Under the pieces are notes generated by a model that was given only the letters and a program-made list of their open reading frames with translations, did no database searches and was not told the DNA's origin. A stretch of DNA of 64,000 nucleotides, taken from assembly GCA_023374025.1 (NCBI GenBank), contig SIJG01000043.1, positions 1,128,683-1,192,682 of the forward strand, read 5' to 3'. Shown in pieces: positions 59,687 through 63,986 of this stretch. The position numbers were made by a program, and so were the translations under genes. Within the stretch, counting starts at the first letter, position 1; the number at the start of each line of letters is the position of its first letter. Source of the stretch: Heterodera schachtii. Lineage: Eukaryota; Nematoda; Chromadorea; Rhabditida; Heteroderidae.

Positions 59687-62642
59687 ATGGCATATTTTTC
59701 CCCTTTTCCTCCCATTTGTCTTTTCCATTTAAATTTTATTTTCCAATTGCTCGGCACCGTTTTCTGTGCTACTGTTTATTTGAAAAAGCAATACGGTGAG
59801 AACGAGTTCAGTATTGAGTCATGGGGCAAAACGAACTGTTCACTGAACGGAATTGACATTGCGGCGCTTGGAATTGGCCGACCATGTGAAGAATGGCCAG
59901 ATTTGGGTAAAAAGACAATTAAAAAATAATTAGCCATTCATAATTAATAAATAAAAAAATAACACTTTATAAATGCTTTTTAAGCCACCATTTTCTGTGA
60001 CGGCAAAATCCTTGAGGTAATAATTAAGAAATTAATTAATTACGTTTACGTAATTTATTAGGCAGTGAATTATTGGGGCGAGCGAATGCTTTTCATGCGC
60101 GTCTCAAAGCATTTCGTTGACCGTCCTCTGTTGAAAGATGCAAAAAAAGTGATCGATGAATTTAAAACCCTTTTTGATGTGACGGAATGGAATAAATTCG
60201 TGGTCAGCGAAATGAGCGAAGCGCAAGTGGACAAATTGGCCAAATTTGTCCAACAAAATTTTGGAATGGCCGACGGGGCATTGACTGAGTAAAATTTAGA
60301 AGATTAAAAATGAAAATAAATTCTTAAACCATAATTAAGGCACGTTCCCGAAGATTGGGTCGAATCACCGCAAAAATTTAAGGAGATCAAAGACGAAAAA
60401 TTGAGGAAATGGGCAACGGAATTGAACAAAATGTGGAAGGAATTGAGCAAAAAAATGCCAAAAGACGTAAAATAAATTATAAAATTGGCTTAATGAAAAT
60501 GCTAACAAATAAGATGGACAACAATGGCAACCAAAGGCATTCGTTGATTTATTTGTCCAACCCTTTCTTCGTTTCGGGTGGCCGATTTCGCGAGTTTCGC
60601 TATTGGGATTCCTATTGGATGGCACGAGGACTGATCGCATCAGGTCAAAATGATCAAAAAAAAAATAAAAATTAAATATTTAAATGTTTAGGGATGACAA
60701 AATCAGTGAAAAATATGTGCCGAAATTTTGCGGAAATGGTCAACCGATTTGGCTTTGTGCCCGCTGGAGGGCGTATTTATTACAACAAACGGTCGCAGCC
60801 GCCATTCCTCACTTTGTGAATTTAATTACAAAAGTTTAATGAAAACGAAAATAAAATATTGTAAAATGAATTAATTAATTAATATTGTTAATTAAGTTTG
60901 GTCTATGATTACTTCGCTGCCACCGGTGACATTGAGTTTCTGAAGGAAATAATGCCAACACTTGAAAAGGTTATCTCAATTTCCATAAATATTTTAATTA
61001 GAAAATTTTTTAATTAAGGAACTCAACTTTTGGCAAACAAATCGTTCGATTCAAATCAAAGTGAATGGGAAGACGAAAACATTCTATCAGTACAGAGCAG
61101 ACACCAAAGTTAAAAAATATAGAGTTTTGAAATTGGTTTAAAATTAAGCTGCCTCGACCTGAGGTATTTTGCCAAGACGTGGAACTTGTCAAGGAAATTG
61201 CCGATCCGATGGAAAAGGCAAAGATTTGGCACGAAATCGCGTCGGCATCAGAATCGGGATGGGACTTTAGTTGTGAGTTAGAGAAAGAGTGATTAATTAG
61301 TAAGACAAGAAGAACAATTGAACTTATTAAGCTCGATGGATCAGAAAAAACGAGACGGACACGGAAAAGCCGTGGAAATTAAAAAATTTGATGACGACAA
61401 AAATTGTGCCGGTGGATTTGAACGCGCTAATTTGCGGCAACTTTGAGAAGATGGCACATATGTACCTCCAAATTGGTAAATCCGAAAGTCAATTGAAAAC
61501 AATGAAAATACATTAAGGAAACAAAGTCAAATCCAGGGAATACCATGCCAAATACCAATTGTTTCTGGAAGACTTCAAAAGCCTGTTCTACAAAAAGGAA
61601 CACGGCATTTGGTACGACTTCAATTTCGAAAGCGGCACACCGAATGAGGCGTACTACGGTAGTGCAGCAGTGCCACTGTTTACGCGCTGTTACGATACAA
61701 TCGACTTGAGCGCAGCGGTGCGAATGTTCGACCGGATGGGCCATTTTGACAATGACAAAAAATTGATTAGTCCCTTTGGCGTATCGACGAGGTTTTTGGC
61801 AAAAATAATTAAAAATTTTTGAATTATTTCCAGCCAAATTAACTCATCGCAGCAATGGGACTTTCCCAACATTTTTCCAGTAGGAAAAATTTTAAACCAA
61901 TTAATTATAAAGATTTATGTAAGAAAAATTAAATGCATACGCACAATACATGCATCAAAAAGGAGAAAACAAGAAGAAAATTATAAATAACGATTTAATT
62001 AATAAAGACAAACTTTTATATGGACAAAAAATAAAATCGAGAATTTTGATGAAAAGGCGTGTCATAAAGGACCTATCTTAATTAAATTTAAATTTATTTA
62101 CATTTTTTGAACGCTTGAAATAGTGTTGTAGTTTGATTTTTAAGAAGAAAAAAAATTCAATCCCTATTAATTCATGGCCAAAAAAATAGAAAATTTAGTC
62201 CACACAACTCATGCTCATCGAAGGACTGCGTAAATCGGGCACCAAACGGTTTTCGTAAAAAAAATTCTGTGTATTGTTTTGTACTTAATTAAGAATGAAG
62301 GACAAAGTGAAGGAATTGGCACAGAATTGGGTGTCCGCCAACTTCAAATTATTCAACAGTAAAAATTGTGGAGCGAAAGTATGGGAGAAAATCACAGCAA
62401 ATGAAGGCTTACCAGGCAGAGGCGGTGAATACAATGCGCAAGTGAATGAAAATTGAATAATTTGTATATATAAGGATTGTTTTTATTTTCCTTTTTGCCA
62501 GATTAATGTTGGCACGGCAATCGGTGTATTGCTTGACACATTTGTGACTTATGGTGGAGAATTAACTTTGGGAAAAATTGATGGATCAAACTGTGAACAA
62601 AAAGACTTCGAAATTGAACCACGCAAATTCCCGAACGAAGTG
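59687..62642 (+). other. trehalase (GH37) portion of the fusion gene
   Basis: Trehalases split trehalose, the main nematode blood sugar, into two glucoses. Family blocks in order: FCDGKILEAVN, SKHFVDRPLLKD, SGGRFREFRYWDSYW (signature 1; Pro to Ser at its start), VYDYFAATGD, ESGWDFSSRW (with the catalytic acid Asp), VPVDLNALICGNFE, QQWDFP (signature 2, followed by NIFP instead of NGWPP), LMLIEGLRKSG, LAQNWVSANF, WEKI (catalytic base Glu position) and PGRGGEYNAQ. The usual GFGWTNG block reads INVGTAIG, so the Trp is lost. Catalytic residues seem kept, but substrate contacts have drifted. Confidence 0.85.
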
Positions 62643-63986
62643 GTAATCAGAAATCTTATTCTTATATAAATTTTCTACAAAATTGTTTTCTCCTTTTATT
62701 GCCAACTTTTATTTACAAGTTTATTTTAAATTGTTCCTTTGAAATTTTTTAACATTAAAAATTAACAGTTTGGTTTTAGTCTGAGTATCGGTCGAAGCAG
62801 TTAGCTGCAGCGCAGAAAAAAGTGGACACAATTAATAAAAGCCAAAAATATTGGAAGGTTAAAATAAAATTATAATATTCTTATTCTTGCAAAATACTCG
62901 TAATAATAAAAATAAAAATAAATATTAATAATTAGTTTAATAAGAAATTGTTTTTTTTCAATAAATTTACCAGGCTGTTATCTACGAACCTTTCGCTTTG
63001 CTGACAGATGCGGAATTGAAAAAACTTGATGGCGTGTTTCCGCCCATATATGGTCCACAGAATCAACAGCTGAAGACATTGGAAACGCTAAATATTGAAA
63101 CTCAATACAGCAACGACAATGATTTACCGCGTCAATTTGACGCGAGGAAAAAATGGCCGGATTGTGCGGACATAATTAGCACAATCACAGATCAAGGTAA
63201 TTTCATTTACTAAAAAGAATTAATTCACTTGGAAGTTCAAATTATTCCTATGTTAAATAGGACTTTGCGGTTGCTGCTGGGCAGTGGCTTCAGCTTCAAC
63301 ATTAACCGATCGCATTTGTATTGCTCGTCTTAAAAAGGGACAAAAAACCTCCCATTATGGAGGGTCATACATCTCAGCACAATTCACTTGCGAATTCACT
63401 CCAGGAAGTGACGGGTAACACGATACAATGTAGAAAATATTGAAATTAAGAGTATTTAATTTTGCAGGTGTAAAGGTGGTTGGCCCAGCATGGCTTGGAA
63501 ATTTTTTCATAAAGAAACAGTATCTGGGACAAATTATGAAATGTACGATGGATGTAGGCCTTGGACAATTGATCCAATTTTTGCTGGAACTTTTTTTGAA
63601 CGTTTACCAATTTTAACTATGGAATATCTTTTTGTCGGTCCCGAGGCTTCGTGGAAAACAAAAAGACCAAACTGCAAAAAAGAATGCAGAATCGGTTGGC
63701 ATCAGACTGTCGAAAACGGTAATTCATGTTTACTTTCAAATGGTTAATTTTATAAAGAGCACATTTAATGTTTTCTTCATTCAAGTTATGAAGATAATTA
63801 CTACGACTTTCAGAAATGGTTGATACGCCGACTGTCATTGGACATGAGTGTTGGATTGGGTGGCATTTTGGAAATGAGCAAAAAATGATGCGTGAAATCA
63901 TGGTCAATGGCTCTATCACTGCATCATATGCCGTTTACGACGACTTTCAAATTACAATGGCAGCTGATATAAATCAAATTTATGTT
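59687..63986 (+). CDS. trehalase-cathepsin B fusion gene, at least 20 exons, 3' end beyond window
   Basis: Exons 59687-59906, 59985-60016, 60062-60288, 60340-60466, 60514-60643, 60692-60815, 60897-60969, 61019-61108, 61149-61272, 61332-61475, 61518-61791, 61834-61879, 62199-62254, 62294-62441, 62502-62642, 62780-62857, 62974-63196, 63261-63414, 63468-63718 and 63814-63986 all agree in phase and give 945 codons so far. The N-terminal 30 residues are hydrophobic, probably a leader. Residues about 65-650 are a GH37 trehalase; from about 653 on they are a cathepsin B propeptide and C1A domain. The trehalase has no stop codon before the donor at 62643 (phase 0), and the propeptide exon is phase 0 with no ATG in the intron between. 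If intron 15 were retained, trehalase would end at a TAA near 62668. The protein is likely secreted or lysosomal. Both domains are recognised; the fusion is inferred from phase. Confidence 0.78.
62780..63986 (+). other. cathepsin B (C1A cysteine protease) portion of the fusion gene, 3' incomplete
   Basis: KVDTINKSQKYWKA is the cathepsin B propeptide (family VNYVNKRNTTWQA). The mature start is LPRQFDARKKWPDCADI, followed by DQGLCGCCWAVASA with the oxyanion Gln and catalytic Cys (residue 758; CGCCW instead of CGSCW), DRICIAR, GCKGGWPSMAWKFF and CRPWTIDP. The occluding-loop region has no His-His pair, so dipeptidyl carboxypeptidase activity may be missing. The catalytic His and Asn exons lie beyond 64000. 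Confidence 0.88.

Follow-up and report, generated by a model that had tools for sequence, protein, structure and literature searches.

A predicted in-frame fusion of a GH37 trehalase and a cathepsin B-like protease in cyst nematodes

Gene structure and domains

We analyzed a 64,000-nucleotide (nt) stretch of the Heterodera schachtii genome (the window; assembly GCA_023374025.1, contig SIJG01000043.1, positions 1,128,683 to 1,192,682 of the forward strand). Near its end is a gene that appears to join a GH37 trehalase in frame to a cathepsin B-like protease of family C1A. It contains 22 exons on the plus strand (59687-64660), with 20 in the window and exons 21 and 22 beyond its end on the same contig. 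It encodes a product of 1013 amino acids (aa) in a stop-free frame, with a signal-like leader, a GH37 trehalase, a cathepsin B-like propeptide, and a C1A protease. All 21 introns are GT-AG, the exon phases are compatible throughout, and the stop codon is at 64658-64660. The features, all on the plus strand, are as follows.

59687-59906, plus: exon 1, start ATG and putative signal-like leader (about aa 1-28, by eye; Kyte-Doolittle [KD] 11-residue maximum 2.05)
59985-62441, plus: exons 2-14, GH37 trehalase body (Pfam PF01204, E 8.3e-118), in the 13 stretches of the next two lines
59985-60016, 60062-60288, 60340-60466, 60514-60643, 60692-60815, 60897-60969, 61019-61108, plus: exons 2-8
61149-61272, 61332-61475, 61518-61791, 61834-61879, 62199-62248, 62294-62441, plus: exons 9-14
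61263-61265, plus: trehalase catalytic-acid Asp codon (ESGWDFS), by alignment to solved trehalases
62385-62387, plus: trehalase catalytic-base Glu codon (VWEKI), by alignment to solved trehalases
62502-62642, plus: exon 15, trehalase C terminus ...EIEPRKFPNEV, coinciding with the end of five stand-alone cyst-nematode trehalases
62643-62779, plus: intron 15, the junction intron (137 nt, phase 0, free of ATG)
62780-62857, plus: exon 16, first part of the propeptide, without a start codon and with an in-frame TAG directly upstream
62974-63196, plus: exon 17, rest of the propeptide and start of the mature protease (LPRQFDARKKWPDC)
63261-63414, plus: exon 18, active-site Cys (CGCCWA; Cys codon 63275-63277)
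63468-63986, plus: exons 19 (63468-63718) and 20 (63814-63986), protease body
64028-64149 and 64570-64660, plus: exons 21 and 22, triad His and Asn and the stop, past the window end

The twenty in-phase window exons of the first-pass annotation were all found, and their phases fit. The one change was the end of exon 13, which is more likely at 62248 (donor CG|GTTTTC). This donor is preferred because it is common to the paralogue L019 on contig C24 and agrees with the proteins of H. trifolii and H. schachtii (...KRMK...). The first donor was dropped, and the product became 1013 rather than 1015 aa.

An hmmscan search with the full protein (1015-aa version), including the exons beyond 64000, placed both domains in one frame. 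The Trehalase match (PF01204) spans aa 99-617 with 394.9 bits against a curated cutoff of 21 (E 8.3e-118). The Peptidase_C1 match (PF00112) spans aa 729-1010 with 113.5 bits against a cutoff of 20.7 (E 1.9e-32). Propeptide_C1 (PF08127) gave no match at an E of ≤1 in the window protein; it is precomputed for the relatives P0012 and P0020. Foldseek and VIA matches concern P0001, which is a 90% identical relative lacking the leader, and not the window protein.

The joint in the window copy

Exon 15 ends with ...EIEPRKFPNEV in phase 0, and exon 16 opens with SEYRSKQL in phase 0. Reading through the exon 15 donor leads to a TAA at 62667-62669. The junction intron contains no ATG, and a TAG codon directly precedes exon 16. 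Past the joint, no in-frame Met occurs until aa 810, downstream of the active-site Cys (about aa 756). The trehalase has a hydrophobic leader, and the joint has none. Because of the TAG and the lack of an earlier in-frame Met, the window-copy protease could not be made without the trehalase start, barring an unseen leader exon. These results agree with the first-pass annotation, which had described phase-0 junction exons with no stop between the domains, an ATG-free intron of 137 bases, a propeptide exon without its own start or leader, and a TAA near 62668.

A weak ATTAAA is present at 62754, in the junction intron. The 400 nt that follow the gene's own stop contain no AATAAA.

Paralogous loci in the H. 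schachtii genome

The cathepsin half, used as a query, had 58 genomic matches. We fetched 16 stretches around some of them. Seven loci have trehalase exons upstream on the same strand. They are the window copy (C43), L019 (C24), L020 (C99), L021 (C27), L022 (C44), L023 (C11), and L024 (C1). Nine other fetched stretches contain cathepsin pieces only, and L026 contains neither part (within about 10 kb). L019 is on another contig and is open through the same 22 exons. L021 to L024 were read exon by exon only.

The joint is the same in all seven loci, with a GT donor after FPN[EN]x, an AG acceptor before S[ED]xR, and phase 0. The junction introns are 137, 124, 53, 56, 1282, 56, and 530 nt long in the window copy and L019 to L024, respectively. 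We scanned about 1.1 to 2.1 kb upstream of exon 16 for a hydrophobic leader exon. At a KD value of ≥2.0, none was found in six loci (L023 was not among them). At ≥1.6, a threshold for which trehalase exon 1 was the positive control, none was found in five of the seven loci. The exceptions were L019, with five readings located in the trehalase stretch, and L021, with one 19-aa piece.

Trehalase genes are strongly expanded in this genome, with at least 70 matches (84 of 99 candidates scored) in about 21 separate places by our grouping. The trehalases on C32 and C171 have no cathepsin match in the fetched 6-kb stretches, where the last trehalase exon was not found either. Cathepsin-type places on C60, C46, C21, C16, C10, C157, C20, C17, and C36, given as examples, have no trehalase match nearby in a trehalase search that was not exhaustive (it missed C11).

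Predicted fused proteins in cyst nematodes

The same arrangement was found in predicted Heterodera and Globodera proteins. We examined the best 120 of at least 817 public proteins with an E of ≤0.001 (7993 candidates scored). Twelve of them contain PF01204 and PF00112 together. They come from H. trifolii, H. schachtii, Globodera rostochiensis, and G. pallida. Five are from Heterodera (P0001 to P0004 and P0007) and seven from Globodera (P0005, P0006, P0008, P0009, P0010, P0012, and P0020). P0003, the likely H. trifolii counterpart of L020, is an open model. Residues 600-800 alone, used as a query, retrieved seven proteins among 978 candidates, all of the trehalase–cathepsin type.

The trehalase end continues directly into the propeptide exon in 14 of 15 rows (the window copy, L019, and 13 proteins, including P0011). 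We grouped genes as fusions when a trehalase end of FPN[EN]x or YPNNV was followed, across a phase-0 joint, by a propeptide exon of the form S/T[ED]xR. This joint was found in all seven loci and in the same number of rows (14 of 15). Five of the eight nearest stand-alone cyst-nematode trehalases (P0013, P0016, P0017, P0018, and P0021) stop zero to five residues past EEP..FP, which is the position of the joint. The genomic locus L042 has a TGA at this position.

Two adjacent genes, as an operon or tandem pair, could have been wrongly joined. The trehalase would then stop in intron 15, and the cathepsin would come from a separate or trans-spliced message. The TAA met on read-through of exon 15 is consistent with this, as are the weak ATTAAA (the gene's own stop likewise lacks a nearby AATAAA), the model P0121 of a cathepsin on its own, and the ATGs in the junction introns of five of the seven loci. 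However, the window copy has no in-frame ATG between the joint and the active-site Cys, and a TAG stands directly before its exon 16. The leader scan was empty at the stricter threshold in six loci and at the looser one in five of seven. In three loci, a junction intron of 53 to 56 nt could hardly accommodate both a 3' end and a promoter, and the phase-0 joint is kept in all seven loci and two genera. Given the startless window protease, the short introns, and the conserved joint, we judged separate genes very unlikely.

Active-site residues

The window trehalase retains the acid Asp (ESGWDFS) and the base Glu (VWEKI), which align with the D and E of solved trehalases. The Asp aligns with the position at which the Arabidopsis D380A acid mutant (7e9x) departs from the wild type (7e9u). 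The Glu aligns with what we take to be E496 of Escherichia coli TreA, a numbering consistent with the chain offset of 30. The GFGWTNG motif after GGEY is lost in the window copy, which has INVGTAIG there. FGWT is retained in fused rows outside the window's own lineage. Because GFGW is lost, the window trehalase may have reduced activity, though both the acid and the base are kept.

The window protease contains the active-site Gln, Cys, His, and Asn of a C1A protease. In an alignment to procathepsin B (1pbh), the occluding-loop His-His is absent, and a longer insert without His-His is in its place. The occluding-loop His-His gives cathepsin B its dipeptidase activity. Because the pair is missing, the protease is cathepsin B-like and probably an endopeptidase. 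The earlier label "cathepsin B precursor" thus calls for a qualifier.

We surveyed the active sites in an alignment of 39 rows (A2) that includes 9 of the 13 fused-type proteins; the window protein is not among them. The acid Asp and base Glu are both kept in seven of the nine fused rows. P0005 has Asn at the acid, and P0008 has Asp at the base. The protease Gln, Cys, His, and Asn are present in all six fused rows that are complete at those columns, and three rows are truncated there.

The fusion may be real and both enzymes fully active, cooperating on the same food, for example in the gut or host apoplast, without a release step. This is compatible with the single fused product that we favor. 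The kept acid and base, in the window copy as in seven of the nine surveyed fused rows, are consistent with it. The loss of GFGW in the window lineage and the substitutions in P0005 and P0008 argue against it. Papain-type zymogens also normally require propeptide removal. We consider two cooperating enzymes without release rather unlikely.

Phylogeny and selection

In the trehalase tree, 12 fused rows are on one side of a branch (100/99) and 17 stand-alone rows are on the other. The fused trehalases nest inside the cyst-nematode trehalases. This tree leaves out P0010, P0012, and P0020, which are truncated or scrambled models. The fused trehalases form one clade, as expected from a single fusion before the genera split.

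The cathepsin tree contains 12 fused and 13 stand-alone rows. The fused rows group together (98/95) with the one exception of P0121, a near copy of P0007 that is probably a fragment or partial model. The row nearest to the window protein is P0002 (H. schachtii). This tree leaves out P0123 and the truncated or scrambled models P0011, P0012, and P0020, and P0010 was cut to 330 residues after the joint. The simplest reading of the sequences is one fusion before the Heterodera-Globodera split.

We compared the window copy with L019 over 1012 codons by the Nei-Gojobori method. The mature protease (exons 18-22) had a synonymous divergence (dS) of 0.763 and a nonsynonymous divergence (dN) of 0.174, with a dN/dS of 0.23. 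The whole cathepsin part had a dS of 0.597 and a ratio of 0.22. Trehalase exons 1-14 had a dS of 0.034 and a ratio of 0.33. Both the mature protease (p 2e-12) and trehalase exons 1-14 (p 0.005) had fewer replacement changes than neutrality predicts. In this paralogue pair, the mature protease is under purifying selection.

The 5' part (59687-62441 versus L019:3862-6612) is far more alike than the 3' part, and this includes introns 1-12, which are 85 to 100% identical. Exon identities between the window copy and L020 fall in the same direction. The dS of 0.034 in exons 1-14, against 0.597 in the cathepsin part, suggests that the 5' part was homogenized by recent gene conversion.

A working trehalase could instead be dragging a decaying cathepsin remnant as a tail. 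The frame change in L020, the dispersed repeat in intron 21, and the loss of the catalytic Cys in two of the three stand-alone H. trifolii cathepsins checked (P0124 and P0126) lean this way. Against a decaying tail, the frame is open to the stop in the window copy and L019, the mature protease has a low dN/dS, and its active-site residues are intact in the window copy and in every complete fused row. The open frame and the selection make a pseudogene tail highly improbable.

Proposed fusion and processing

An in-frame fusion is supported by its presence in two genera and seven loci, both trees, selection on the protease, and the lack of an own protease start in the window copy. The first-pass annotation had proposed this fusion. 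The same joint in several copies and in related species argues for a real fused protein rather than two neighboring genes. We put a probability of roughly 85% on a true chimeric cyst-nematode gene with one fused product, a GH37 trehalase–cathepsin B-like zymogen. This figure excludes the release step described below.

Several points weigh against this reading. The single mRNA and single precursor are inferred. Only the window copy and L019 were assembled whole among the seven loci. L020 has a frame change within its exon 16 equivalent (L020:5540-5616), and clear donors are absent at some of its later exons in a crude mapping. It is either a damaged copy or an assembly error. The public two-domain proteins are predictions, with visible scrambling or truncation in some models. 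P0002 skips exon 16 yet stays in frame, the P0011 model ends after the propeptide, and P0121 is modelled without a trehalase. The comparison of stops at the joint rests on five of eight trehalases, as the tail of P0014 is different and the GGEY landmark is missing from P0015 and P0019. Selection was tested on a single paralogue pair. The lack of an ATG in the window junction intron is not general, as those of five loci contain 1 to 14 each. An in-frame stop directly before exon 16 is likewise not general and occurs in three of the seven loci.

In the fused-gene reading, a splice donor would have replaced the trehalase stop in a common ancestor. This donor would join a secreted GH37 trehalase in frame to a cathepsin B-like gene minus its signal-peptide exon. 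One polypeptide would be made and secreted via the trehalase leader. The cathepsin propeptide, between the two enzymes, would act as an internal pro-segment and linker. It would be cut near LPRQFDARKKW, as in other C1A zymogens, to release a mature endopeptidase, with the propeptide left as a tail on the trehalase. We give this predicted release even odds. The window-copy trehalase may be weakened and may serve as a carrier or as a folding or targeting pro-domain. Some copies show drift at trehalase residues but an unaltered protease triad, and the trehalase may therefore be evolving into a carrier or pro-domain. Release of the trehalase on activation, or a role as an extended pro-domain, may apply; either fits the anatomy.

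More tentatively, these genes could form a lineage-specific class of secreted two-enzyme zymogens, which arose by one fusion in the cyst-nematode ancestor and then spread to seven or more loci. The trehalase would serve a papain-type endopeptidase as its delivery and inhibitory pro-domain. The mature part would be diverging while the trehalase parts are kept alike by gene conversion.

Other features of the locus

Intron 21 (64150-64569; L009:5150-5569) is 420 nt long and contains a dispersed repeat with at least 82 matches, including itself (40 of 1621 first-look candidates scored). Its equivalent in L019 is only 43 nt long. A serpin-like gene is downstream on the minus strand, at about 68340-68530 in window coordinates (about L009:9340-9530). 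It matches Pfam Serpin with an E of 1.4e-8 over a 52-aa piece.

Significance and comparison with known systems

The gene combines two known enzyme families in an arrangement that we found nowhere described, and database entries for it are named Trehalase. GH37 trehalases are not otherwise known to us in fusion with a C1A protease. A search of the open PubMed Central subset by title and start of abstract, with subscription papers and preprints outside it, found no description of a trehalase-cathepsin fusion. The fused genes make up a conserved multicopy family in two genera that are major crop parasites. The family affects the interpretation of trehalase counts and expression data from cyst nematodes, and it offers a datable gene-fusion event. 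It also poses the question of how a papain-type protease with an internal propeptide is kept inactive and released.

Trehalases of these nematodes are described in the literature. Eight trehalase genes are reported to be raised in G. pallida males (PMC4054857), and one trehalase in dry cysts of G. pallida (PMC5478601); the passages available from both are silent on a fusion. Hsc_gene_15468 is a gland-enriched H. schachtii trehalase in work on a trehalase peptide as a microbe-associated molecular pattern (MAMP) (PMC12309661). It is a secreted cyst-nematode trehalase, as the product here is predicted to be. The available passages of that paper are silent on a fusion, and the words cathepsin and peptidase are absent from its main text as available. 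The region that aligns by eye with its plant-recognized peptide is present here as VNRFGFVPAGGRIYY (60692-60815), with several differences.

The stand-alone secreted GH37 trehalases of cyst and root-knot nematodes (for example, P0013, P0016, P0017, P0021, and P0023) have the trehalase domain in common with the fused gene. Five stand-alone cyst-nematode trehalases also share its C-terminal layout up to EEPxxFP. Unlike the fused gene, the stand-alone forms are protease free and end at or near the joint (the five cyst forms) or in other tails (P0014 and P0023).

The cyst-nematode cathepsins P0122, P0124, and P0126 have a propeptide of the form AQxxVDxLNxxQxYWTAxV and a papain-family domain, like the fused gene. 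They differ in that they have their own hydrophobic leader and no trehalase. The stand-alone models P0121, P0122, P0124, and P0126 are 34 to 39% identical at 97 to 100% query coverage. P0123 is 52% identical over 56% and is probably a fragment. Procathepsin B (1pbh) also has the papain-family domain, and the catalytic Cys is retained in it and in P0122. P0124 and P0126, both from H. trifolii, have Ser and Ala at the position of this Cys, so some members of the stand-alone sister group may be inactive. True cathepsin B has the occluding-loop His-His that the fused protease lacks. The predicted "Trehalase" entries with PF01204 and PF00112 from H. schachtii, H. trifolii, G. rostochiensis, and G. 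pallida, which are database predictions, have the same architecture and are direct relatives.

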